A stretch of 64,000 bases of DNA from Tateyamaria sp. syn59 (GTDB lineage Bacteria; Pseudomonadota; Alphaproteobacteria; Rhodobacterales; Rhodobacteraceae), in contig NZ_VCBA01000009.1 of assembly GCF_007995245.1 (NCBI RefSeq), positions 1 through 64,000 of the forward strand, in the 5' to 3' direction. The translations under genes were made by a program, and so were the position numbers. The notes below the pieces were generated by a model. The model saw only the letters and a program-made list of their open reading frames with translations, ran no database searches and was not told the DNA's origin. Below are positions 5,489 to 58,481 of the stretch, piece after piece. Numbering within the stretch: position 1 is the first letter of the stretch; every line of letters begins with the position of its first letter.

Positions 5489-6423
5489 TGTCCACCCCCA
5501 ACTCCCGCGCCAATCTGGCATTCTACGCGGTCATCGCCCTTCTGGTTTTCATGTCCGTGGGCCCGGTGCTCCTGATGTTCATCAACTCGTTCAAGCTAGA
5601 CGTGGACATCATCTCGGGCACCTCTGGCCTGATCTTCATGCCGACGATCCAGAACTATGAGCAAGCCCTGTGCGATGTCCTCTGGTACGAACCCGAGCAC
5701 CTCGACTTCTGCTCGCTCAAATTTGGCGGTGCTTTTATCAACTCGCTGATCATCGCGCTGATCTCGACCGCGCTCACGCTGGTGATCGGGTGTATGGCGG
5801 CCTACGCGCTCGTGCGATTCCGATTCATGGGGCGGGACACCGTATCGCTCAGCACACTCATGGTCCGCATGGTACCGCCCGCCGTGCTGCTCGTCCCTGT
5901 TTTTGGTTTGTGGAATAACGAGTTTTGTCTGGATCGCGATGGCCTGATTGGCGGCGCGATCCGTGACACGTTTGGGGGGCGGGGTGATGTCTGCCTTGCA
6001 GGCACACACTCCGGTATCATCCTGATCTATGTGGCGATGAACCTGCCCTTCGTGATCTGGATTTTGCAGAGTTTCATTGTGCAGGTGCCGCGTTCGCTGG
6101 AAGAAGCGGCGCGGGTTGATGGGGCGGGGCCGTTCCAGGTCTTCTTCAAAGTGGTGCTACCGCTCATCAAACCCGGCCTCGCTGCCGCAGCCATCTTTAC
6201 CTTCCGCATCGCATGGAACGAATACCTGCTCGCGTCCGCCCTGTCGGACCGCGACACACGCACCGTGCCGATCCTGATCGTGAACAACATGTCCGAGTTC
6301 AACGTGGAGTGGGGTGTGATCATGGCCACGGGCATGCTGCTCGCCATCCCACCGATCATCTTCACGCTGCTGGCCAGCCGCCAGATCATCACCGGCATGA
6401 CCGCAGGCGCGGTCAAAGGCTGA
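5488..6423 (+). CDS. Sugar ABC transporter permease 2 (MalG/UgpE type)
   Basis: A 311-residue inner-membrane permease, partner of the preceding gene. The EAA motif is SLEEAARVDGAGPFQVFFKV. The N-terminal helix is FYAVIALLVFMSVGPVLLMF. A longer than usual periplasmic segment between the first helices contains four Cys (YEQALCDVLW, LDFCSLKF, NNEFCLDRD, GDVCLAG), which could form disulfides. The start at 5488 shares its A with the upstream TGA and is preceded by GAGGAGG, so it is the natural start although the frame is open further upstream. Its own stop overlaps the next gene by one base. The importer is therefore complete: ATPase, binding protein and two permeases. Confidence 0.9.
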   Translation: MSTPNSRANLAFYAVIALLVFMSVGPVLLMFINSFKLDVDIISGTSGLIFMPTIQNYEQALCDVLWYEPEHLDFCSLKFGGAFINSLIIALISTALTLVIGCMAAYALVRFRFMGRDTVSLSTLMVRMVPPAVLLVPVFGLWNNEFCLDRDGLIGGAIRDTFGGRGDVCLAGTHSGIILIYVAMNLPFVIWILQSFIVQVPRSLEEAARVDGAGPFQVFFKVVLPLIKPGLAAAAIFTFRIAWNEYLLASALSDRDTRTVPILIVNNMSEFNVEWGVIMATGMLLAIPPIIFTLLASRQIITGMTAGAVKG

Positions 6424-16529: not shown

Positions 16530-16610
16530 TGCTGCGTGGGGTGTGACCCCTTTCTGCGGTCCGAAGGACCAAAACGGCGTGCGCGGGAAACTCGTAAGTC
16601 CCTGACGTGA
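16530..16610. other. Candidate oriT-like region with two inverted repeats
   Basis: GGGG-TGTGA-CCCC (16538-16550) and GGTCC-GAA-GGACC (16558-16570) are adjacent perfect inverted repeats. About 23 nt further on is GTAAGTCCCTG, loosely like the nick region GTAAGTGCGCCCT of IncQ-type plasmids. The position after mobilisation-like genes supports a decayed oriT, but the match is weak. Confidence 0.35.
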
Positions 16611-16741
16611 CTTGTGTCCCGCGCATGGAACGCGTCGCTGCCGCGTCGCTGTTGTCTGTCATTTTCTGCTTCCCAGCTTTTCCTGGCTGCTTCCCAGGGA
16701 ACTGCGTGGATTTTTTCCTGAAGCGGCAAAGGACACCAGAC

Positions 16742-17772
16742 ATGGGAAAAGCTCATCCAAAAACCGACAAAATCAATCCACACCCGCTGCACCGAGAAAC
16801 CGTGTCCTGGGACGCGGAAGTTCCGGGCCTTGGTTTGCGGCAGCGTGGGGCGACTGCGACATGGATCGTGCAACGTCGCGAAGGAGGCCGAACGCGCAAA
16901 CAGACGCTTGGTCGTACAGACGACATGTCGCTGTCGCACGCCCGCGTGGTGGCGCGGGACTTGCTTGGTCTCGAAGACGTAAGCGCGTCTGCAGACATTT
17001 CGCCGACGGTGGCAGAGTTCAGTCAACGATACCTGGCTGACTGCGCGCAGAATTGGAAACCGGCTACGCGCCGCGCGCATGCATTGGATGTCAGGAACCG
17101 CATCCTGCCATCCCTCGGCGACAAGCGATTGGATCAACTGTCTCGTTCAGATTTGGAGAACTGGAAAGAAAGACTGACCTGCAGTGCCGCCAGTGGCAAT
17201 CGCGCTCTGGCCGTCTTGTCGGGTATGATGCGCTACGCGGAACTGTTAGGTGTGCAACCCCGGACAGCAATCCGTGCAAGGGTTTGCATCGGCGCAAATC
17301 CGAGTTCACGGCCACCTATTTGTCTGACGCGCAATGGAAGCGACTGGGACAAGCCTTGTCCGGCTTTGAAGCGGCGCACCCAAGAGAAGTGGGCGTGCTG
17401 CGGTTTCTGGCCTACACCGGATGCCGGAAGGGCGAGGCTTTGTCTTTGCAGTGGGATAAGATCGACGTTATGCGTTGCGTGCCCAGCGACTCCAAGACCG
17501 GTCCGCTCTCGATTTGGCTCGGACAATCCGCGCGGCGACTTCTCAGTTCCTTTCCCCGCATCAACCGGTTTATCTTTGGAGAGGGCACGAACTCCGCATG
17601 CTCGACGTTAAACAGATATCACCGCAGCGATGCCGAGGCCCCTACCCCACAGTGCGCAAAATCACTATCGTTAGCGGAGTTGAGCGATCAGTTTTGCTCC
17701 GCATTGCCGCCCGTCGAACTGGCCATTTGCGATGACCGTAAAAACGCGAGGTTACAAGCAGTGAACTGCTAG
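16742..17772 (+). pseudogene. Tyrosine integrase, frameshifted and truncated
   Basis: The ATG at 16742 opens a DUF4102-type integrase N-terminus (VSWDAEVPGLGLRQRG, TRKQTLGRTDDMSLSHAR), followed by the core-binding domain (TVAEFSQRYLADCAQNWKP, LGDKRLDQLSRSDLENWKERL). Near 17262 the homologous reading moves to another frame (a one-base deletion fits), continuing NPCKGLHRRKSEFTATYLS and LAYTGCRKGEALSLQWDKI, which holds the first catalytic Arg. After SDSKTGPLSIWLGQSARRLL the homology fades: the HxxR box and the nucleophile Tyr are not found before the stop at 17772. Two independent lesions make this a dead gene. It marks an old integrated element together with the mobilisation remnants upstream. 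Confidence 0.85.
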
Positions 17773-19789: not shown

Positions 19790-20621
19790 GGGTCAGGACC
19801 CATTGATTTCCGTTTGGCAGCATGATTCACGGTTCGAAAACCGAGCGGTGACCATGTCTGATCTATTTTGGCTGACGGATGCGCAAATGGCGCGCCTTGA
19901 GCCCTTCTTTCCGAAGTCCCACGGTAAGCCGCGCGTCGATGATCGGCGCGTGCTGAGCGGGATTATCTTCTTCAATCGCAATGGCTTACGCAGGCGCGAT
20001 GCACCCGCCGCCTATGGCCCCCACAAGACGCTATACAATCGCTGGAAACGGTGGAGCGATAAGGGTGTCTTTGCCCGGATGATGATGGGTTTGGCTGCCG
20101 AGCACGGCGAAGAGAAGACCGTGATGATCGACGCCACCTACCTGAAGGCCCACCGCACAGCGACCAGCTTGGGCGTCAAAAAGGGGGGCGTGGACGCCTG
20201 ATCGGTCGCACCAAAGGTGGCATGAACACCAAGCTGCACGCCATCTGCGACAGCCAAGGGCGTCCGCTCAACCTGTTCGTCACAGCTGGGCAAGTCAGCG
20301 ATTACATCGGAGCGAGGGCATTGCTGAACAGCCTGCCTGATGTCGATTGGCTGCTCGGAGATCGCGGCTATGACGCCGATTGGTTCCGGGAAGCGTTGAA
20401 AGACAATGGGATACGCGCCTGTATCCCTGGCCGGAAGCAGCGGAAGAAACCGGTAAAGTACGACAAGCGTCGATACAAACGCCGCAACCGGATCGAGATC
20501 ATGTTCGGCAGGCTCAAGGACTGGCGGCGTGTAGCGACCCGATAAGATCGCTGTCCAAAGGTATTCCTCTCAGCAATCGCACTCGCCGCAACCGTCATCT
20601 ACTGGCTATGAGTCCTGACCC
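19790..20621 (+). mobile_element. IS5-family insertion sequence (IS427-like group), 832 bp
   Basis: The terminal inverted repeats are GGGTCAGGACCCAT at the left (from 19790) and, as reverse complement, GGGTCAGGACTCAT at the right (ending 20621). TA flanks both ends (19788-19789 and 20622-20623), consistent with the 2-bp target duplication of this family. The length is typical. It encodes one transposase split over two frames. The copy is complete in outline but carries a premature stop near the transposase end. Confidence 0.88.
19854..20611 (+). CDS. IS5-family transposase, two frames joined by a -1 frameshift, with premature stop
   Basis: The first part (19854-20201, MSDLFWLTDAQMARLEPFFP...) ends in another frame after VKKGGVDA. 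The second part (KGGMNTKLHAICDSQGRPL, LLGDRGYDADWFREAL, RRNRIEIMFGRLKDWRRVATR) is in the -1 frame. The switch falls on A5G6 at 20178-20188, a good slippery run. Read through it, the protein gives KKGGRGRLIGRTKGG, the normal family sequence. The DDE residues are split between MIDATYLKAH, GDRGYDAD and the RIEIMFGRLK Glu. The second frame stops at a TAA (20543-20545) where relatives have a Tyr codon (TAC). Beyond it DRCPKVFLSAIALAATVIYWL is still intact to the TGA at 20611. So this copy lacks its last ~22 residues and is probably inactive. Confidence 0.85.
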
Positions 20622-20792
20622 TAACCGGCTCAGGAAAAGAAATCTCCTCTGTGCGACGGCTCGCGCCGGGTAAAGCGGTCAACATAAACGAAGGATGCTA
20701 CACTGTTTGCGAACCTCGGCTTATGTTCATCCTACTGGATACGAACTTGGATAGATCCAGGAGGTGCTGACACCTCAGTTATGGCAGTATGA

Positions 20793-25994: not shown

Positions 25995-26761
25995 GCCTCG
26001 CCGCCGTCGCCCTCAACTTCGCATATGACAAGCGGCCGATCCTGCAAGGAGCCGGGTTTGATGCGCTGAAACCGGGTGAACTGACAGCCTTAATTGGACC
26101 AAATGCATCCGGCAAATCGACCCTGTTCCGGGTCATTGCGGGTCTTTTGGCACCCTCGGTAGGCACAGTGATGCTCGGCGACACCGACCTTGCCACCCTG
26201 CCCGTCCGCACCCGCCTCAAACGCGTGTGCTTCATGCCTCAGTTCTTTGCTGCCAATGCCGCATTGACGGTCTTTGACGTGGTCATGATGGCGCGCAAGA
26301 ACCTCTCCGGTTGGCGCGTCACAACTGAGGACATGGACGCCGTGGGCGAGGCTTTGCACGGCGCGGGCATCGGTCACCTTTCCGAAGCATACATCTCCGA
26401 CCTCTCCGGCGGGCAGGCCCAGATGGTTTCGGTGGCCCAGGCCCTGATCCGTCAAGCAGACGTCTACCTTTTTGACGAGCCAACCTCCGCGCTTGACCTT
26501 CGCCACCAACTTGACGTGCTCAACCGTATCCGAACCACCATCGCCAACCGTAATGCCATCGGCATTGTAGCACTTCACGACCTAAACCTTGCGGCCCGCT
26601 TTGCAGATCACTTGATCCTGCTACGCCAAGGTACGGTTCTGGCCCAAGGCACCCCCGCAAATGTGCTTCATCAGCCCGAAATTGGCGCCACGTACGGCGT
26701 AGACATCCGCATCACCACAGGCCCTAAAAAGGATCTCGTCGTCCATGCTTACACGTCGTAA
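25991..26761 (+). CDS. Iron-type ABC transporter ATP-binding protein (FecE type)
   Basis: A 256-residue ATPase with Walker A GPNASGKST, signature DLSGGQAQMVSVAQAL, Walker B VYLFDEP, D-loop SALDLRHQ and H-loop VALHDLNLAARFADH, the last typical of the FepC/FecE/BtuD group. The unusual QAQM in the signature replaces QRQR/QQQR. It couples to the FecCD-type permease by a 4-nt overlap. Its 3' end overlaps the pseudoazurin start by 17 nt, so the cupredoxin belongs to the same transcription unit rather than being a chance neighbour. Confidence 0.9.
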   Translation: MSLAAVALNFAYDKRPILQGAGFDALKPGELTALIGPNASGKSTLFRVIAGLLAPSVGTVMLGDTDLATLPVRTRLKRVCFMPQFFAANAALTVFDVVMMARKNLSGWRVTTEDMDAVGEALHGAGIGHLSEAYISDLSGGQAQMVSVAQALIRQADVYLFDEPTSALDLRHQLDVLNRIRTTIANRNAIGIVALHDLNLAARFADHLILLRQGTVLAQGTPANVLHQPEIGATYGVDIRITTGPKKDLVVHAYTS

Positions 26762-27227
26762 CTTTACCATCTCCCTAGCAGCGCTTACCGGCACCTATGC
26801 CGCGGCCAAGACACCCATTCCAACAGCCACCGGAGGCAAGCATTCCATCCTGATGCTCAACGCGGATTGCAATGACAGCAACATCCTCAACGTCTTCGAC
26901 CCTGCGATCTTGCATGTAGACGTTGGCGATAGCGTGACCTTCCTCGCGACCGATCCCAGCCACAACTCCGCATCAAAACGCGGCATGATCCCTGAGGGCG
27001 CGGAGCCATGGAACGGCGGTATCGACGAAGAAATCACTCTCACTTTAACCGTTCCGGGCATCTACGGATATCTCTGCCTACCGCACTATGAACAGGGAAT
27101 GGTGGGCCTGATCGTGGTGGGCGGCGATCTGACGAACCTCGACTCGGTCAAGAAGGTACGCCACCCCGGCGCAGCACGCACCAATTTCCGCGCCCTGCTG
27201 CGGCAACTCGAAGAGGGAAAGACGTAG
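26745..27227 (+). CDS. Pseudoazurin-like type 1 copper protein, in the iron ABC operon
   Basis: A 160-residue cupredoxin. The N-terminus MLTRRNFTISLAALTGTYAAA is a twin-arginine-like export signal. The copper ligands of pseudoazurin are visible: His in DPSHNSAS, then Cys-x2-His-x4-Met in CLPHYEQGM. Trp in AEPWNGG and GIYGYLCLPH are also typical. It would carry single electrons in the periplasm. Its gene overlaps the ABC ATPase and is followed 3 bp later by a methyltransferase. Pseudoazurins are best known from denitrification, but no nir or nor gene is in the window. A similar protein is encoded at 35643, also beside a TonB receptor, suggesting a metal-uptake role (inference). Confidence 0.85.
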   Translation: MLTRRNFTISLAALTGTYAAAKTPIPTATGGKHSILMLNADCNDSNILNVFDPAILHVDVGDSVTFLATDPSHNSASKRGMIPEGAEPWNGGIDEEITLTLTVPGIYGYLCLPHYEQGMVGLIVVGGDLTNLDSVKKVRHPGAARTNFRALLRQLEEGKT

Positions 27228-34850: not shown

Positions 34851-35627
34851 TCAACGCGCGTGCGCAGACGTGCTGGATTTCCTTGGCCTGAAATGGCTTT
34901 GGGATCGAATGCGTTTCTCGGTCCTTCCGCGCCATATCGCGAAGGTCCACGCAGATAACACGGCACTGATGAGGAGAATGAGCGCATACATCAACACATG
35001 GCCAAAGGCGAAATACGACCCTGGCGCGGCAAGGGTCAGGGTCACGTTTGCTCCGGGTTCAAAGTATCGCAGAGACTTGGTCTGTTGACCGCTGCCGAAG
35101 TCGAAGACACGAACGGTCAGGTCGCTGGCGGTGGGCGTGGCCAATGTCAGCTCTAAGGTGGCCTCCACGCTGCCGACATCGGCAAAGTAACCCGCGTAGC
35201 CGGACAACTCGGCCAAATAGTACGTCGCATCGGACGACAATGCGTTACAGACGCCAATCGCGACCATACCGTCCAATGGTGTTTCAAAGGCAAGGGCGTC
35301 GCCCGAGGGATGAAGCATGAAAGACATTGCCTCAGGCCGAACCGGAGACTGGTCAATCTCTATCACCGCGTCCGCAATCAGGGCGTCGCCAATGCCCCAC
35401 GTCCCACCCGCGAAGGCGGCGTAATCGACGCGGTCATCATGTTTTGGAACGATCTGCGTATCTGCGCCGAAGGCACGAAACAGAGTTTCGGCCTCGGCCG
35501 ATATGTAGAGTTCAGTGTGCGTCGCTGCGCGGTTCACCACAATCGAAACCACCTCGGCGCGGACAGCCCCGGGTAGTACCATGAGGTGAACGACCACGGC
35601 CACCAAGTATATCGCAACGATACGCAC
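34851..35627 (-). CDS. Exported single-helix membrane protein of unknown family
   Basis: A 258-residue protein not recognised. The N-terminus IYLVAVVVHLMVLPGAVRAE is a signal peptide. Residues ~30-210 form a beta-rich periplasmic domain (VSIVVNRAATHTELYISAEA, VTLTLAAPGSYFAFG). A single helix, VLMYALILLISAVLSAWTFA, lies near residues 212-232 and is followed by a short basic cytoplasmic tail (WRGRTEKRIRSQSHFRPRK). Topology is therefore periplasmic sensor or anchor. It starts 15 bp after the stop of the pseudoazurin gene, so both form one operon, and it may hold or reduce that cupredoxin. It converges on the TonB receptor gene with a 36-bp gap. Confidence 0.7.
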   Translation of the reverse strand: MRIVAIYLVAVVVHLMVLPGAVRAEVVSIVVNRAATHTELYISAEAETLFRAFGADTQIVPKHDDRVDYAAFAGGTWGIGDALIADAVIEIDQSPVRPEAMSFMLHPSGDALAFETPLDGMVAIGVCNALSSDATYYLAELSGYAGYFADVGSVEATLELTLATPTASDLTVRVFDFGSGQQTKSLRYFEPGANVTLTLAAPGSYFAFGHVLMYALILLISAVLSAWTFAIWRGRTEKRIRSQSHFRPRKSSTSAHAR

Positions 35628-35642
35628 GAGGCCGCGAAGCCC

Positions 35643-36149
35643 TTAAGCAGAGCTTGGTTCGAGAAGCCCCATCTCGGACGCCTCTTCCCAGATTTCTTCA
35701 AACACTTTCTTGGCGCGACCGCGTTGGCGTACGCTTTGCGCGGCCTCGAGGTTGTCGAGCTTGCCTTCGCCTTCAACGACGACGAGCGCCACCATACCCG
35801 TGGCGGCGTGCGGTGTGCATTTGTAACCATAGATGCCAGGCACATCGAAGATAACTTCTATATCCTCGTTGATCCGGCCATCCCACTCTTCGGCTGCCTC
35901 AGGGATCATACCGTCGATTGACGCGCTGTTGTGGCTACGATCGGTGGCCTTGAACAACACGGTTTGGCCTGCTTCGACAGAGATCACCCGCGGAAGAAAA
36001 ATGTTGCGCAGCCTGCTGTCAGTCGGATGCTTGGTCAGCATCTCGATTGTGACAGGTTCTTGGGCAAACACCTTCGTAGGCAAAGCAGGGACAAGAGTTG
36101 CGGCGGCGCTGCCTGCCAGAAAGGTGCGACGGCTGTGCGAGTTCGACAT
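35643..36149 (-). CDS. Pseudoazurin-like type 1 copper protein (second copy)
   Basis: A 168-residue cupredoxin with a twin-arginine-like signal (HSRRTFLAGSAAATLVPALP, cleavage near KVFAQE). Copper ligands: His in DRSHNSAS, then Cys-x2-His-x4-Met in CTPHAATGM. The match to the copy at 26745 is clear around TDRSHNSAS/TDPSHNSAS, GMIPE and VPGIYGY, but the N-terminal half differs, so the two diverged long ago. Its C-terminal extension (FEEIWEEASEMGLLEPSSA) is helical. It is followed by a membrane-anchored partner gene. Divergent neighbour is the Sel1-puhC-puf operon (99-bp gap), so it is also a candidate periplasmic electron donor for that reaction centre; this is inference. Confidence 0.86.
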   Translation of the reverse strand: MSNSHSRRTFLAGSAAATLVPALPTKVFAQEPVTIEMLTKHPTDSRLRNIFLPRVISVEAGQTVLFKATDRSHNSASIDGMIPEAAEEWDGRINEDIEVIFDVPGIYGYKCTPHAATGMVALVVVEGEGKLDNLEAAQSVRQRGRAKKVFEEIWEEASEMGLLEPSSA

Positions 36150-36248
36150 GAAAAGACCTCAGTAGATATATGTTTCTGCTGGGGCAGCACATCGGCATTC
36201 CTCGCGGTGCATTGCAGATTAGAGCAGATTGCCTTAAAGTCTACAATT

Positions 36249-36884
36249 ATGCTCAGGTATTTTTATTGCACCGTGAAGATCACTTTGGCGGCACTTTCGA
36301 CCGCTTTATTTTTTGCGCCCACAGTGTCTGCGGAGCCGACCCCACACCCATGTGGATCGCCCTTGTCCAACCGACTTGTCGCGCATCGGGCCGCGGCGGG
36401 TGATGCCGGTGCAATGGTGTATTTGGGCAAGAAACTGATCCAGCCCGTTTGCACACAGGCCCAACAAAACGAAGGGATACGTCTTATTGCACGCGCCGTG
36501 ACAGCCCAACACCCCGAAGCGATGTTTACGCTTGGCACGCCGCTGATCCGTGACGCTGCAAAGGAAACCGAAGAACAGCTCGGCCTCGATTACATTGAAC
36601 AAAGCGCGCAGCTTGGTCATACCCATGCGGCTGCTTTCCTTGGCGCGCATCTCATGTCTGTTTCCCGAACTGAGGATCAGCGAGATCAAGCGTTTCTTTG
36701 GTTGGGACTTGCGGCAAATGACGGATCTGTATTGGCCGCCATGACGCTGTCGCAGCTTTACAAAAGCGGCATGCACGGCGTGGTTCAGGACCGCTGCGCA
36801 GCTGCGCTATGGCGTGAAACTGCCGGGCTGCTCCAAAATCCGGACATGGATTTCAGCCCTCAGACCGATGTTGCGTGCAAATGA
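36249..36884 (+). CDS. Secreted Sel1-repeat protein at the head of the puhC-puf group
   Basis: A 211-residue protein with a signal peptide (ITLAALSTALFFAPTVSAEP). The mature part is a row of about four Sel1/TPR-like helical repeats, seen as AHRAAAGDAGAMVYLGKKL, ARAVTAQHPEAMFTLG, IEQSAQLGHTHAAAFLGAHL and GLAANDGSVLAAMTLSQLY. Four Cys (HPCGSP, PVCTQ, QDRCAA, VACK) could form disulfides. Sel1 proteins are periplasmic protein-protein scaffolds. The gene is 24 bp before puhC in the same direction, so the two are likely co-transcribed. A Sel1 protein is not a known part of photosynthesis clusters, which makes its place here notable. ATG at 36249 is the only Met before the signal peptide. Confidence 0.75.
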   Translation: MLRYFYCTVKITLAALSTALFFAPTVSAEPTPHPCGSPLSNRLVAHRAAAGDAGAMVYLGKKLIQPVCTQAQQNEGIRLIARAVTAQHPEAMFTLGTPLIRDAAKETEEQLGLDYIEQSAQLGHTHAAAFLGAHLMSVSRTEDQRDQAFLWLGLAANDGSVLAAMTLSQLYKSGMHGVVQDRCAAALWRETAGLLQNPDMDFSPQTDVACK

Positions 36885-36908
36885 ATACGGACATCGGAGA
36901 GCATAGCA

Positions 36909-37382
36909 ATGCTTACACCTGAAACAGAGGACACCGCCCCTTCCCATCTTGGTCCGCAGTCTGGGCGGGCGATGATTATGATCGCCGCCCTGCTGTGTGT
37001 CATCGTGGCGCTTGTCGCCTGGGCCCGGCTGACGGAGCAGCCCCTTGCTGCGCGGCCAGCCGATTTGCCAATAACCTCCGAGCGGGCATTACACTTGGAG
37101 GCGGAGCTTGATGGGTCGGCGCAGGTAACAGATCTTCGAGGTGCCCTCATCGCCGATTTCGGCCCAGGCCAGGCCGTTTTTATTTCGACAATCGTCCGGG
37201 TTATTGACCGCGAGCGCATGAAGGTGGGTGCGGATCCCGACGCGGCCATCTATCTGCGGCAGCGTGGTAAGACACGCCTGACGTTTTTCGACCCAGAGAC
37301 GCAACGCGAGACTGAACTCAACAGCTTTGGTCAAGACAATGTAGCATCCTTCAAAGCACTGCTTCAGCAAGACGCAAAGTAG
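36909..37382 (+). CDS. puhC: Photosynthetic complex assembly protein PuhC
   Basis: A 157-residue single-pass membrane protein: cytoplasmic N-terminus, helix IMIAALLCVIVALVAWARL at about residues 23-41, then a periplasmic domain. The domain matches PuhC in order: ERALHLEAELDGSAQVTDL, GQAVFISTIVRVIDRERMKVG and RLTFFDPETQRETELNSFGQDN, ending SFKALLQQ. PuhC is needed for full assembly of the reaction centre-LH1 core in purple bacteria and is normally encoded in the puhABCE cluster. Here it is without puhA, puhB and bch genes and leads straight into pufLM. Two TGT-N12-ACA sites begin 2 bp after its stop. The family call is by pattern reading and is good but not certain. Confidence 0.83.
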   Translation: MLTPETEDTAPSHLGPQSGRAMIMIAALLCVIVALVAWARLTEQPLAARPADLPITSERALHLEAELDGSAQVTDLRGALIADFGPGQAVFISTIVRVIDRERMKVGADPDAAIYLRQRGKTRLTFFDPETQRETELNSFGQDNVASFKALLQQDAK

Positions 37383-37383
37383 C

Positions 37384-37424
37384 TGTCCAATATTCCTGAC
37401 AAAATATGTAAATTATTATTGACA
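37384..37424 (+). promoter_or_regulatory. Tandem TGT-N12-ACA (PpsR/CrtJ-type) sites with overlapping -35 element
   Basis: TGT-N12-ACA occurs at 37384-37401 and again at 37407-37424, 5 bp apart. This is the recognition pattern of PpsR/CrtJ, the aerobic repressor of photosynthesis genes. The second site ends in TTGACA (37419-37424), a consensus -35 element; TAGTCT at 37441-37446 is a weak -10 candidate. A repressor here would block the pufLMX promoter. Confidence 0.65.
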
Positions 37425-37781
37425 GATTGCCGCGGGTCGGTAGTCTAAGGCAGTCGAACATTGCTATCTGCTTTTAGCAGCTTGGGGCCGGATCGTTCTC
37501 CGCGGTTCCGGTTGGCAAAAGGGGTCGGTTGGCAAGCTCTGCCCTTATGCTGGAAGCGGCGCGACGCTGTTTGACGGCAGGCCATTGCCTGCGACACGGA
37601 CCAGCAGTCTTGCCAGTTCATTTTCTAAGAACCGATAGGACCTCCGCTCCTATCACCGTGCGATGTGCACGGCTCGACCGACTGTCTGCGCACGGCGGTC
37701 GGTCGGGCGCACATTGGGTTTTGCCGCATAGATTGTGTGCGGTCGGCATCGGCGCTTGGCTACGCTGGAAAGGGGAAAACG
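37425..37781 (+). other. Long pufL leader; no LH1 (pufBA) or pufQ genes
   Basis: About 357 nt between the putative promoter and pufL. No frame encodes anything like the LH1 beta or alpha peptides, or PufQ. Two hairpins are visible: GCAGGC/GCCTGC (37577-37592) and CGACCGAC/GTCGGTCG (37675-37705). In standard puf operons pufBA and stabilising hairpins occupy this place, so the leader may be what is left after loss of pufBA. Confidence 0.6.
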
Positions 37782-38630
37782 ATGGCATTGCTCTCGTTTG
37801 AACGAAAGTACCGGGTTCGAGGAGGCACGCTCATTGGCGGCGACCTCTTCGACTTTTGGGTTGGCCCGTTCTACGTCGGCTTCTTCGGGGTCACGACGGC
37901 ATTCTTCACGCTGTTGGGGACATTTTTGATATTCTATGGGGCCGCTCTGGGTGACACGTGGAATCCTTGGCTGATCTCGATCGAGCCGCCAGAGCTTGAT
38001 GTCGGTCTGGGTGTAGCACCGCTGGCCGAAGGCGGATTGTGGCAGTTGATCACGATATGCGCCCATGGCGCCTTTATCAGCTGGGCGCTGCGTGAAACGG
38101 AGATCTGCCGAAAGCTTGGTATCGGATGCCATGTGCCGGTTGCTTTTGGTGTCGCGATCTTTGCCTACACGACACTTGTGGTCATTCGCCCTGTGCTGAT
38201 GGGCGCCTGGGGGCACGGCTTTCCGTATGGCATTTGGAGCCACCTCGATTGGGTCAACAACGTGGGCTATGCCTATGGCAACTTCCACTACAACCCGGCC
38301 CACATGATCGCGGTGACTTTTTTCTTCACCACGACGCTCGCACTTGCACTGCACGGGTCGTTGATCCTGTCGGCGGCGAACCCCGAAAAGGGCGAAACCA
38401 TGCGGAGTCCCGAACATGAAGACACGTTTTTCCGCGATTTCATCGGCTATTCAATTGGGCCACTTGGCATCCACCGCCTTGGCCTGTTGCTCGCTTTGAA
38501 CGCCGGTTTTTGGTCGGCCGTGTGCATCGTGATTTCCGGAACGGTCTGGTTCGATGCCTGGGCTGACTGGTGGTACTGGTATGTCGATCTGCCGTTCTGG
38601 ATCGACCTTGAGGGAGGCGTTAATGGCTGA
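37782..38630 (+). CDS. pufL: Photosynthetic reaction centre L subunit
   Basis: A 282-residue protein, the same length as PufL of Rhodobacter sphaeroides, with five helices. Counting without Met, the cofactor residues fall at the standard numbers: His153 (accessory bacteriochlorophyll), His173 (special pair), His190 and His230 (non-haem iron), Glu104, Glu212, Asp213 and Ser223 (quinone protonation). Blocks such as [26 protein letters not shown] and [10 protein letters not shown] are intact. Nothing indicates decay. It binds the pigments and QB of a type II reaction centre in the cytoplasmic membrane. AAGGGGAA lies 5 bp before the ATG. The stop overlaps pufM by 8 nt. It lacks the usual upstream pufBA. 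Confidence 0.97.
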
Positions 38631-39546
38631 GTATCAGAACATCTTTACGCAGGTTCAAATCCAAGGACCGCCTGAAATGGGCATGATCGAGGATGCGAAT
38701 CCCACCGATCGCACGACGTCCGCGCGTTACTCCACGCTCCTCGGTTGGTTCGGCAATGCTCAGTTGGGCCCGATCTACCTTGGCAGCTTCGGAGTGGTGT
38801 CACTGGCCACGGGGGCGATCTGGTTCCTGATGGTCGGCGCCAGCTACTGGGCGCAGGCAGGCTACAATCCGGGCGTCTTCATGCGCGATCTGTTCTGGTT
38901 CTCGCTTGAGCCACCCTCGCCAGACTACGGGCTGAGTATGCCGCCGTTGAAAGAGGGCGGGATGTGGCTGATTGCCAGCTTCTTCCTTCTGGTGTCAGTG
39001 ATGGCCTGGTGGGCGCGGTCCTACCAGCTTGCGCAGCAGCAAAAGATGGGCAAGCACGTGTTCTGGGCATTTGGAGCCGCCATATGGCTGTTTCTGGTGC
39101 TGGGCCTGATCCGCCCGATCCTGATCGGTAACTGGTCGGAGGCTGTGCCATATGGCATCTTCAGCCACCTCGACTGGACGATGAATTTTTCCGTGCTTTA
39201 TGGCAACCTATTCTACAACCCGTTCCACGCCCTGTCGATCGTGTTTCTATATGGGTCAACACTGCTGTTCGCGATGCACGGTGCGACGATCCTCGCGGTG
39301 TCCCGCTACGGTGGCGACCGCGAACTGGAGCAGATCGCCAATCGCGGGACAGCAACAGAACGCGCCGCTCTATTCTGGCGCTGGACCATGGGGTTCAACG
39401 CCACGATGGAGGGCATTCACCGCTGGGCCTGGTGGTTCGCAATCCTGACGCCGATCACAGGCGGCATCGGCATCTTGCTGACCGGTACAGTGGTCGACAA
39501 CTGGTACGTCTGGGCACAAGAGCACGGCTATGCGCCGCTGGACTAG
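38623..39546 (+). CDS. pufM: Photosynthetic reaction centre M subunit
   Basis: A 307-residue partner of PufL. Relative to R. sphaeroides one residue is lost near position 105 (SMPPLK), so ligands appear one lower: His181 and His201 (bacteriochlorophylls), His218, Glu233 and His265 (non-haem iron), and Tyr209 (the M210 Tyr that tunes primary charge separation). Motifs [43 protein letters not shown] and [12 protein letters not shown] are intact. The gene is translationally coupled to pufL. No pufC cytochrome gene follows, so the donor would be a soluble or membrane cytochrome c2/cy or possibly a cupredoxin. Function depends on bacteriochlorophyll synthesis and PuhA, which are not in this window. 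Confidence 0.97.
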
Positions 39547-39558
39547 GAGGTACGCGGG

Positions 39559-39798
39559 ATGACCAAACACATCTTTGAACTGGAAAACGTCTCCGAAAGG
39601 GACCGCCGCAAATTCCTGCTGGACAACATCCTCGGGCAGATGGTTCGGGGCTGCGCGTTCGCGGCGACAGTCCTCTTTGGGCCGATCCTATTTATCTATG
39701 CGATCTATGTGGTGGGGACGTTCCTGCCCCCGGAGTCAAAAGAGGCGCAAGACCCCACGCCAGATAGTTTCGTGTCGTCCAGCGAAGAGGGGTCGTAG
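39559..39798 (+). CDS. pufX: PufX-like reaction-centre-associated protein
   Basis: A 79-residue single-helix membrane protein starting 12 bp after pufM behind GGAGG. The charged N-terminus (MTKHIFELENVSERDRRKFL) is followed by the helix MVRGCAFAATVLFGPILFIY and the end AIYVVGTFLPPE. The VVGxxLP junction and position match PufX of Rhodobacter (82 residues, VVGRMLP), which opens the LH1 ring for quinone exchange. The Ser/Glu-rich tail may be trimmed as in PufX. PufX acts on LH1, yet no LH1 genes precede it here, so the partner antenna must come from elsewhere or the role has changed. PufX diverges fast, so identity is judged by position plus motif. Confidence 0.75.
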   Translation: MTKHIFELENVSERDRRKFLLDNILGQMVRGCAFAATVLFGPILFIYAIYVVGTFLPPESKEAQDPTPDSFVSSSEEGS

Positions 39799-39960: not shown

Positions 39961-40110
39961 ATGACAGAACCTGATACTTGTGGGTGCGCCCAATGCTCGC
40001 CCGAATGTGGATGTTCACAAGAAGCACCGACAGATGGGCAATGCTGTTGCGGTGAGACATGCACTTGCGAGGATTGCACGTGCGGACCCAGCTGCCGCTG
40101 TCCCGACTGA
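39961..40110 (+). CDS. Metallothionein-like small Cys-rich protein
   Basis: A 49-residue protein too short for routine gene calling: ATG at 39961 with GGAG 6 bp upstream and TGA at 40110. It has 14 Cys (at 7, 9, 12, 16, 18, 28, 29, 30, 34, 36, 39, 41, 45, 47) in C-x-C, C-x2-C and CCC runs, with no His and no aromatic residues. Start MTEPDTCGCAQCSPECGCS, end TCGPSCRCPD. This composition is that of metallothioneins, which sequester Zn, Cd or Cu(I) in the cytoplasm. It lies between the puf operon and a small XRE regulator that itself ends in Cys residues, in a metal-transport neighbourhood. It is not clearly a BmtA/SmtA type, as those carry His and aromatic residues. Confidence 0.8.
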   Translation: MTEPDTCGCAQCSPECGCSQEAPTDGQCCCGETCTCEDCTCGPSCRCPD

Positions 40111-40240
40111 ATTTTAGGCACCCACCTGTTCATCACCGGTGCGGTTCACAGACTTCAATCCGCAACTGGTTCAAGGCTTGATGTCAGAGCCATGCTTTGC
40201 GACTTGCCGCTATAATAATCTGCTTCCATGGGAATGTTCT

Positions 40241-40516
40241 ATGAACAGCGTGACAGTTGACAGAGATCGAATAAAGGCCATCCGTAAATCACGTAAGATC
40301 GGGCGGCCAAAGCTTGCGAAGCTGGCCGGTTTGACTGAGCGGCAGATTGCAAAGATCGAAACGGACAGTGCACCAGTCGTTGCCGAAAACCTACTCGTTC
40401 AGGTATCGGACGCGCTGCATGTCCCAGTCCAGACCCTGACGGGCGAATTTCCTTTGATCGCTGAAGATCTTGAGCCCGCGTCAGCGAAAAAATGTACAAG
40501 CGGCTGCTGCGGCTAG
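40241..40516 (+). CDS. XRE-type regulator with C-terminal Cys motif
   Basis: A 91-residue DNA-binding protein. The helix-turn-helix is RIKAIRKSRKIGRPKLAKLA followed by GLTERQIAKIE, about residues 9-40. The helical remainder ends ASAKKCTSGCCG. The terminal C-x3-CC could sense a thiol-binding metal such as Cu(I), Zn or Cd. The ATG at 40241 is preferred; the 34 codons upstream lack a ribosome site. A TATAAT hexamer lies at 40211-40216. The metallothionein-like gene ends 130 bp upstream in the same direction, so this may be its regulator. That link is inferred from proximity and Cys content only. Confidence 0.75.
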   Translation: MNSVTVDRDRIKAIRKSRKIGRPKLAKLAGLTERQIAKIETDSAPVVAENLLVQVSDALHVPVQTLTGEFPLIAEDLEPASAKKCTSGCCG

Positions 40517-57144: not shown

Positions 57145-57755
57145 GAAGCTTCCATCATCATATAACAATTTTGCTGGCAAGTTGCCACGACAGGACACAA
57201 AGCCCTCTCTTTCCTTTGAAAATCAGCCTGCATCATCAGCGCACAGCACCATCCAGTTCGCCCAGACGGGGCCACGGCCCAGCCTCAAGCGGATAATCTT
57301 GAAGTGCGCGTCCCGGTCCTTGCTACAGTCCGCAGCCACTTACAGGCGTCGGTAGGCCGCGCGTCGGGTCTCAAAGAGTTTGCACTGTGCCATGCCGCCC
57401 GCATCGGTCTTGGTCAGGGGGAAAGACGGTGCCTTCAGGTCGATCCTTCCTGTCTCAGAACCGCGCAAAAAACCAAGCAGGCGGACCGGATGGCCAGTGT
57501 AAGGCGTACAAGTCTCACGCCATAAGTCGGCAGCCTAATACTTTGCGAAAACGGTGCTCCGTCATGTATTGCAGGGTTCGTTTGCTTGCTTTGCTCGTTC
57601 TGCAGCACTTTTCTGGCACGTTTTGCTACCAGAAGAGCACTACCAGCGCGCAACTGAGCATTTTATCGTGTCGGACGAAACACGGATCTTTGTATCTTCT
57701 GATTCAAATCGGGCATAGTTGTCTTGGCATGCAAGCGGCAAGGGAGTTGTCCGAA
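57145..57755. other. Intergenic stretch without a recognisable gene
   Basis: About 610 bp between the Uma2 gene and the SDR. A short minus-strand frame around 57235-57320 (FKIIRLRLGRGPVWANW) looks protein-like, possibly a gene remnant, but no family was recognised. Short plus-strand frames lack ribosome sites. Confidence 0.4.
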
Positions 57756-58481
57756 ATGAGCAAGGTCCTTTTGCTCACTGGCGCAAGTCGCGGAATTGGT
57801 CATGCGACGGTCAAGAAGTTCTCGGCGGAAGGTTGGCGCGTTCTGACCTGCTCACGGCAGGCATTCGACCAAAGCTGCCCTTGGCCAGGTGGTGAGGAAA
57901 ACCACGTTCAGATCGACCTGTCTGATCCTGCTGACACGATCAACGCGGTTGGGGTCATCCGGGATCGCCTGAACGGGCGACTGGACGCACTGGTGAACAA
58001 CGCAGGCATTTCACCCAAAGCAGCAGACGGTTCGCGGCTGAACACAATGGACACCGACCTGATGGATTGGGGAAAGGTGTTTCATGTCAACTTTTTCGCT
58101 CCCATCGTCCTTGCCCGCGGCCTCAGCGAAGAGCTCGTCGAAGCCAAGGGCACAGTTGTCAATGTGACCTCCATTGCCGGATCGCGTGTGCATCCTTTCG
58201 CAGGAGCGGCCTACGCGACGTCAAAGGCGGCGTTGTCCGCGCTAACGAGGGAGATGGCTCATGATTTTGGTCCTCTCGGCGTTCGCGTAAATTCCATTGC
58301 TCCAGGAGAGATAGAAACCTCGATACTGTCTCCCGGCACTGACAAGATTATCGAACGACTGCCAATGAGACGTATCGGCCAGACATCCGAGGTGGCAGAC
58401 GTGATCTTCTTTCTCTGTTCCGAGCATTCAAGTTACGTGAGTGGGACCGAGATCGAAATCAACGGCGGGCAACACGTTTGA
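57756..58481 (+). CDS. Short-chain dehydrogenase/reductase
   Basis: A 241-residue classical SDR. The cofactor turn is LLTGASRGIGHATVKKF; then IDLSDPAD (Asp of the second strand region), LVNNAGIS, the catalytic Ser in VNVTSIAGSRV, Tyr-x3-Lys in YATSKAALSALTREMA, and VNSIAPGEIETSIL. The end YVSGTEIEINGGQHV is typical. An Arg at the end of strand 2 (TCSRQAF) favours NADP(H). The ATG at 57756 follows AAGGGAG; a Met nine codons upstream is possible. No operon partner, so the substrate alcohol or ketone is unknown. Cytoplasmic oxidoreductase. Confidence 0.9.
   Translation: MSKVLLLTGASRGIGHATVKKFSAEGWRVLTCSRQAFDQSCPWPGGEENHVQIDLSDPADTINAVGVIRDRLNGRLDALVNNAGISPKAADGSRLNTMDTDLMDWGKVFHVNFFAPIVLARGLSEELVEAKGTVVNVTSIAGSRVHPFAGAAYATSKAALSALTREMAHDFGPLGVRVNSIAPGEIETSILSPGTDKIIERLPMRRIGQTSEVADVIFFLCSEHSSYVSGTEIEINGGQHV

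Follow-up and report, generated by a model that had tools for sequence, protein, structure and literature searches.

A puhC-pufLMX cassette without antenna genes on a plasmid-like contig of Tateyamaria sp. syn59, probably encoding a second reaction centre

What are intact photosynthetic reaction centre genes doing, with no antenna genes beside them, on a contig that carries TonB receptors and iron transporters? The question is raised by a 64,000-base stretch of Tateyamaria sp. syn59 (hereafter the window; C9:1–64000), in which puhC, pufL, pufM and pufX stand together as a small cassette that an earlier note, made from the letters alone, had described as an orphan reaction centre operon. The genome (4.57 Mb in 56 contigs, rated 100% complete and 0.34% contaminated) has its photosynthesis cluster elsewhere, on contig C12. 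The cassette is probably a horizontally acquired, PpsR-controlled second reaction centre (RC) of the PufX type, situated on a RepABC-type plasmid and borrowing its H subunit, pigments and antenna.

The cassette and its host genome

All four genes lie on the plus strand with open frames, and each product scores above its curated family cut-off. They are puhC (36909–37382), the second copy in this genome of the gene for a photosynthetic complex assembly protein (TIGR03054, 120.2 bits; cut-off 55), pufL for the L subunit (37782–38630; TIGR01157, 435.6 bits; cut-off 266.2), pufM for the M subunit (38623–39546; TIGR01115, 524.5 bits; cut-off 364.25) and pufX (39559–39798; PF11511, 44.4 bits; cut-off 25). 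The start of pufM overlaps the end of pufL by 8 bases. In the alignment of L and M sequences the standard residue is present at each cofactor-ligand position checked (Rhodobacter sphaeroides numbering). The genes are thus real and intact, and the note was right that pufL and pufM are complete to the ligands and that a PufX-like gene is kept. With pufX directly 3′ of pufM in place of pufC the arrangement is that of a PufX-type RC, and it departs from a canonical puf operon in having neither pufQ-pufB-pufA 5′ of pufL nor dxs 3′.

The absences reported in the note also hold: pufQ, pufB, pufA, pufC and puhA, as well as bchX and bchY, have no match in the window. The 399-base gap between puhC and pufL (37383–37781), most of it a long leader ahead of pufL (37425–37781, plus strand), has no recognisable pufQ, pufB or pufA remnant; the sole match was on the minus strand at E = 0.17, and with the same C12 queries the positive control, the canonical locus L083, returned 1e-16 (pufQ), 7e-21 (pufB) and 5e-26 (pufA). 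A pufBA pair misread in this gap was rejected on this search and on a whole-genome hidden Markov model search, which found light-harvesting (LH) genes on C12 and C7 only. The claim that no bch or crt gene occurs in the 64 kb stands in part: none was among the window's matches to open reading frames (ORFs) of the photosynthesis contig, a query set of 250 ORFs of at least 100 amino acids (shadow ORFs included) without bchZ, and no bch or crt family-model search was made. What did match these queries was L, M and PuhC, members of transporter and dehydrogenase families, the shadow frames of all these, and a single further ORF (57387–58481) to which no identity was assigned.

The genes missing from the cassette are found elsewhere in the genome, as the genome-wide search suggested in the note reveals. 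Contig C12 (79,900 bases) contains bchX, bchY, pufQ-B-A-L-M-C, dxs and the only puhA match of the genome, with the other puhC copy 1.1 kb from puhA; by similarity to a named plasmid it also carries ppsR and other bch genes. Two further LH genes are on C7, followed by an ORF read by eye as PucC-like. C12 is 84.3% identical to a Tateyamaria omphalii photosynthesis plasmid across 91% of 20 kb. C9 is related to plasmid pDOK1-4-2 of the same T. omphalii strain: a 20-kb stretch with repABC in it aligns at 82.6% identity (94% covered), the adjoining 20 kb at 86.3% (47% covered) and 3.5 kb of the window at 80.7%. From this kinship and the repABC genes the cassette appears to be borne by a plasmid of the RepABC type; pufL occurs on 11 plasmid records, and pDOK1-4-2 is not among these.

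Recurrence, tree position, selection and predicted control sites

A reaction centre is present in each of the 20 genomes of the genus, and 19 of them give two RC-domain matches (one L, one M); four matches, corresponding to two pufLM pairs, are found in this genome only. A draw of 295 genomes from the family (294 genera) gave a pufL match at E ≤ 1e-100 in 121, and two such matches in three: this genome, G194 and G058. A survey of 20 fetched regions and at least 80 loci from a scan of genome contigs found LM pairs without a pufBA match at L044, L045 and L063 (fetched regions) and at L084–L088 (contig scan), L084 being the same contig as L044 and counted once. L063, from G058, is a different, divergent pair and not a puhC-pufLMX cassette. 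Seven genomes with the antenna-less cassette were thus found. They are that of the window, G194 (L045), G011 (L044, where pufQ intervenes between puhC and pufL) and four of pelagic origin (L085, Marinovum sp. NAT183; L086, AG-359-N23; L087, AH-326-E22; L088, AG-390-B07), with L085, L087 and L088 being near copies in L and M.

In G194 the main cluster is pufQBALMC and the cassette is a second centre, as it is here. In G011 (98% complete) and the four pelagic genomes (G313–G316, small or draft assemblies) the cassette holds the only LM pair found, so that entire lineages appear to rely on it as a functioning unit. Of these five, G011, G314 and G315 gave antenna-gene matches; their photosynthesis cluster reads bchX-bchY-(bchZ, by eye)-pufQ-pufB-pufA-dxs, and nothing matching L, M or X intervenes (the pufQ of the G011 main cluster was read by eye across the border of the fetched stretch). 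No antenna gene was found in the small or draft assemblies G313 and G316. These pufQBA-then-dxs clusters lie at 323–2765 of L080 (G011:C16, with L079), 9591–12439 of L185 (G314) and 7003–10014 of L186 (G315). The cassette puhC is the sole puhC found in G011 and the only copy seen in G314 and G316, and G313 and G315 have a second one.

The L protein of the window is 94% identical to that of G011 and its M protein 84–85% identical to those of G011, G194 and L085; the C12 copy is identical to the window at 77% of aligned columns in L and 75% in M. A tree of 26 selected rows, of the kind the note had proposed, places the window in a 12-row clade (99/97) inside the PufX group and the C12 pair with the main copy of G194 in the PufC group, with support of 100/100 for the split between the two groups. 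A 92-row LM tree, from which nine loci without an L/M pair by the motif filter are left out (L106, L112, L134, L147, L149, L150, L152, L153 and L160), agrees with it. The ratio of nonsynonymous to synonymous substitution rates (dN/dS) is 0.064 between the window and G011 and 0.050 between the window and G194, the two cassettes with unsaturated silent sites, compared with 0.046–0.085 in three canonical PufX pairs and 0.11–0.15 in two PufC pairs. These ratios point to strong purifying selection on L and M of the window.

Two palindromes matching TGTN12ACA, the PpsR/CrtJ consensus, lie in tandem between the puhC stop codon and pufL (37384–37401 and 37407–37424, plus strand, by sequence match only), the second ending in a −35-like TTGACA. 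Such a pair occupies this interval in all seven cassettes (a count that includes the near copies L085, L087 and L088), with start-to-start spacings of 21–26 bases, and in G011 it is ahead of pufQ. When each gap was shuffled preserving dinucleotides, a pair arose in none of 2000 shuffles for six loci and in one of 2000 for L085. Chance alone yields many single sites (12.1 expected in the window, 15 counted); the pair ahead of pufL is the only one in the 64 kb, and 240 kb of other sequence from the same genome contains 33 single sites and no tandem pair. C12 has three tandem pairs, all within its first 20 kb and one of them just 5′ of an ORF taken as bchC. Of 22 comparison photosynthesis-cluster stretches 18 have a tandem pair and four have none, and in the stretches that also hold pufL no pair is within 5 kb of that gene.

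A tandem motif in a promoter region is what marks the PpsR/CrtJ regulon, and the cassette thus seems to have a photosynthesis-type promoter region of its own. Because the sites are between puhC and pufL, L-M-X may have its own transcript with puhC transcribed apart, and a single puhC-pufLMX transcript was rejected as the only option. The word operon in the note accordingly calls for qualification.

A second reaction centre and its alternatives

What is shown directly is which genes the cassette has, where it lies in the genome, that it recurs, where it falls in the tree, that L and M are under purifying selection and that tandem sites precede pufL; that it is expressed, assembles with the H subunit and LH1 (the core antenna encoded by pufBA) and functions, and which donor serves it, are inferences. 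The cassette itself encodes L, M, PufX and the assembly factor PuhC; bacteriochlorophyll, carotenoids, the H subunit (single puhA) and LH1 would come from the resident PufC-type cluster on C12. As no second puhA, antenna or pigment genes accompany the cassette, a functional centre made from it must use the shared puhA and pigments, and as PufX is kept it most likely uses the shared LH1. The tandem sites would place it under the resident PpsR, such that both centres would be made under the same oxygen and light regime. The resident centre (RC1) receives electrons via its bound tetraheme PufC; the cassette centre (RC2), having no PufC with it, should be reduced directly by a soluble carrier such as cytochrome c2 or possibly the neighbouring pseudoazurin. 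Residue L257, presumably part of the cytochrome c2 docking face in Rhodobacter sphaeroides, is Asp in all cassettes and Lys, Ser, Gln or Ala in the 12 PufC-type sequences sampled. Two interpretations offered in the note, a second antenna-sharing RC and a transferred fragment, are both supported and come to the same thing, a plasmid-borne cassette with the photosynthesis cluster elsewhere in the genome.

Several observations weigh against this reading or parts of it. The 12-row clade comprises the seven cassettes and five canonical pufQBALMX operons; the G011 cassette, which keeps pufQ, groups with the canonical L046 (89/85); and none of the 200 bootstrap trees, nor the best tree, unites the cassettes in a single clade. 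Given the L046 grouping and the bootstrap result a single origin of the cassettes is not proven, although a single cassette clade is not rejected by the approximately unbiased test (p = 0.189, 26-row tree). Silent sites are saturated in 6 of the 17 pairs compared. The window has seven residues absent from all other aligned L and M sequences, of which L105 T, M170 N and M240 N fall at sites that otherwise hardly vary; M-subunit positions below ~106 are offset by one owing to a deletion, and M88, M95 and M100 were left out of the comparison. L257 is the sole donor-face position that separates the RC types, and L261 is acidic in the cassettes and the PufC group and non-acidic in most other PufX operons. 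No sigma-70-type match lies on the plus strand 5′ of pufL, the scan giving two matches, both on the minus strand, versus 1.8 expected. LH1 is encoded here in an operon of the PufC type, and its fit with PufX is therefore putative.

An antenna-free centre that works bare, outside the LH1 ring, is unlikely. It would agree with the lack of LH genes with the cassette in all seven loci; PufX, with its known role in the LH1-RC complex (PMC6052148, in the text available), is nevertheless kept in every one of them. Moreover, G011, G314 and G315 have an intact pufBA at another locus and no RC was found in them besides that of the cassette, so that RC and LH1 most likely meet in these genomes.

A further possibility, doubtful to a similar degree, is that the cassette encodes an iron-sparing alternative RC, in which the tetraheme PufC is dispensed with and a pseudoazurin acts as soluble donor on an iron-uptake plasmid. 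The gene in question, divergent from the cassette (35643–36149, minus strand), encodes a blue copper protein with a signal of the twin-arginine translocation type (PF00127, 46.2 bits; cut-off 21.2); it is pseudoazurin-like, scoring 102.7 bits with TIGR02375, below the cut-off of 109.85. Five genomes, that of the window and the four pelagic ones, have a gene of this type next to the cassette, and G082 and L107 have one near dxs. Among 13 genomes with this pseudoazurin type and pufL, the two are within 10 kb on one contig in three (window included), far apart on one contig in two and on different contigs in eight. In G033 (L236; C27, 10709–14221) the order is pufQBALMX-pseudoazurin-bchY-(bchZ, by eye)-dxs, and this position between pufX and bchY inside a puf superoperon hints at a blue-copper electron donor for that RC. 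Position M192, presumably at the donor-docking face, is hydrophobic in 7/7 cassettes, 1/5 sister operons and 1/17 other PufX operons, being elsewhere mostly Thr, Arg or Gln.

On the other side, the window protein is strongly acidic (isoelectric point 4.7, charge −9.9), unlike the pelagic ones, which are near neutral or slightly basic or acidic, and that of G033, which is basic; nor is it sister to the pelagic ones. No pseudoazurin-type gene was found beside the cassette in G194 or G011, and the window has no match to an Irr-type iron box (0.84 expected). A copper donor for RC2 is improbable. Equally tentative is a broader proposal, taken as a whole, of a self-contained, iron-sparing, PpsR-controlled RC module moving among marine Rhodobacteraceae, which would plug into the host H subunit and LH1, either replacing the resident LM (G011 and the pelagic genomes) or standing beside it (here and in G194), and would take its electrons from a soluble donor, perhaps a copper protein, in place of the heme-rich port of PufC.

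Very unlikely is an assembly or binning error by which C9 would belong to another organism. Window composition lends it something, with a G+C content of 0.55–0.60 and tetranucleotide correlations of 0.88–0.93 to the mean of 11 genome stretches that themselves give 0.91–0.98, and, among the matches listed, only LM and ABC-transporter genes in the 16 kb around the cassette have DNA relatives in the genus. The remainder of C9, however, correlates at 0.93–0.96 and, besides repABC, contains genes related to those of a Tateyamaria plasmid, and C12 too matches one; contigs C10, C11 and C20 are similar to the window in G+C content; and G194 is a two-RC genome of the same make-up. Least likely of all is a reading near the third interpretation of the note (a relic of a broken photosynthesis cluster), in which the cassette would be what is left, in decay, of a cluster that was lost, or else a silent fragment of recent date. 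The missing antenna genes, the 19 of 20 genomes of the genus without a second pair and the seven window-only substitutions could be cited for it; it is left unsupported by the C12 cluster with pufQBALMC and puhA, the open frames, the low dN/dS, the retained tandem regulatory pair and the five other genomes in which no LM pair was found outside this cassette.

Upstream of the cassette, the plus-strand gene at 36249–36884 was labelled Sel1 in the note, a label weakly supported in that TPR and MotX matches are below threshold and no Sel1 or TPR model reaches its cut-off. It was rejected as a member of the puf cassette, since in G123 its homologue clusters with a pseudoazurin and a 258-amino-acid gene away from puf, and it probably belongs with the neighbouring pseudoazurin gene. 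The 258-amino-acid protein of the window (34851–35627, minus strand) has no assigned family, with no Pfam match and a predicted fold of mean pLDDT (predicted local distance difference test) 43; its type adjoins this type of pseudoazurin in the window (34851–36884), G123, G011 and L107 (in pieces), and further neighbourhoods of this kind are at 5994–7942 of L241 and 6657–8187 of L242. Directly 3′ of pufX (39961–40516) are a very cysteine-rich 49-amino-acid ORF, metallothionein-like by eye, and a helix-turn-helix-like ORF ending in CTSGCCG. Elsewhere in the window are a second pseudoazurin-like gene (26745–27227) that adjoins an iron ABC transporter and is common to pDOK1-4-2, an IS5-family transposase (19803–20625) with copies 86–89% identical on the plasmid records listed, and an integrase-like ORF recognised by eye (16607–17611).

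Comparison with known systems

The split architecture appears to be undescribed in the literature searched, which mostly excluded subscription papers and in which no description of antenna-free pufLMX or LM-less clusters was recognised; the available text of PMC5810265 has nothing on second RC copies. A 2025 review, in the part available, states that no known phototroph has both pufX and pufC (PMC12654162). In this genome and G194 both PufC and PufX centres are present as separate intact loci, and G011 and the pelagic relatives indicate that RC genes can leave the photosynthesis cluster, the antenna genes staying behind and the moved genes having PpsR-type sites of their own. With both in one cell, hitherto a difficult setting to find, it becomes possible to ask if the PufC and PufX centres are competitors, use LH1 jointly or are suited to different conditions, and if reaction centres pass from species to species as modules in their own right. 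A survey based on pufM can, moreover, score a single cell as two centres.

In its genes the cassette is close to the canonical pufQBALMX operon of Rhodobacteraceae (PMC6052148, as far as available), with L, M and X homologous and in the same order and the window LM in the PufX group. It differs in having no pufQBA or dxs, in its upstream puhC and PpsR-type tandem before pufL, and in its location outside the photosynthesis cluster. Extrachromosomal photosynthesis gene clusters (PGCs) are known in Tateyamaria and others, according to the portion of PMC6739100 available; photosynthesis genes on plasmids are a shared feature, and the C12 cluster matches that of T. omphalii. Both RC types in one genome have a parallel in seven COR-cluster Roseobacter genomes with pufLMX and pufLMC (PMC12661815), the one mention found in print being in a figure legend. 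The COR-1/2 subclusters, described in the available text as streamlined, about 40% in G+C content and near Marinovum (PMC12661815), may be the lineage of L085–L088; in that text the antenna-free architecture, LM-less clusters, puhC, PpsR sites and plasmid location are not mentioned.

A close counterpart is Citromicrobium sp. JL354, where, in the account available, a second, incomplete PGC (pufLMC-puhCBA) stands beside a complete cluster (PMC3338782). The divergent pair of G058 (L063; C3:44000–63000), with an L 64% identical to the window L and a PufC-like ORF, resembles that incomplete cluster, its contig having a second puhA and no LH genes found there. As in Citromicrobium, the window cassette is an additional set of RC genes that lacks those for antenna and pigments, lies on mobile DNA (here judged by similarity) and coexists with a complete cluster elsewhere. 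In Citromicrobium, pufC and puhCBA travel along on an integrating conjugative element (PMC3338782, same text), whereas the window cassette is of PufX type, has puhC only with no second puhA beside its pufLM, and lies on a contig of RepABC type; in some genomes with the cassette, moreover, no other RC was found.

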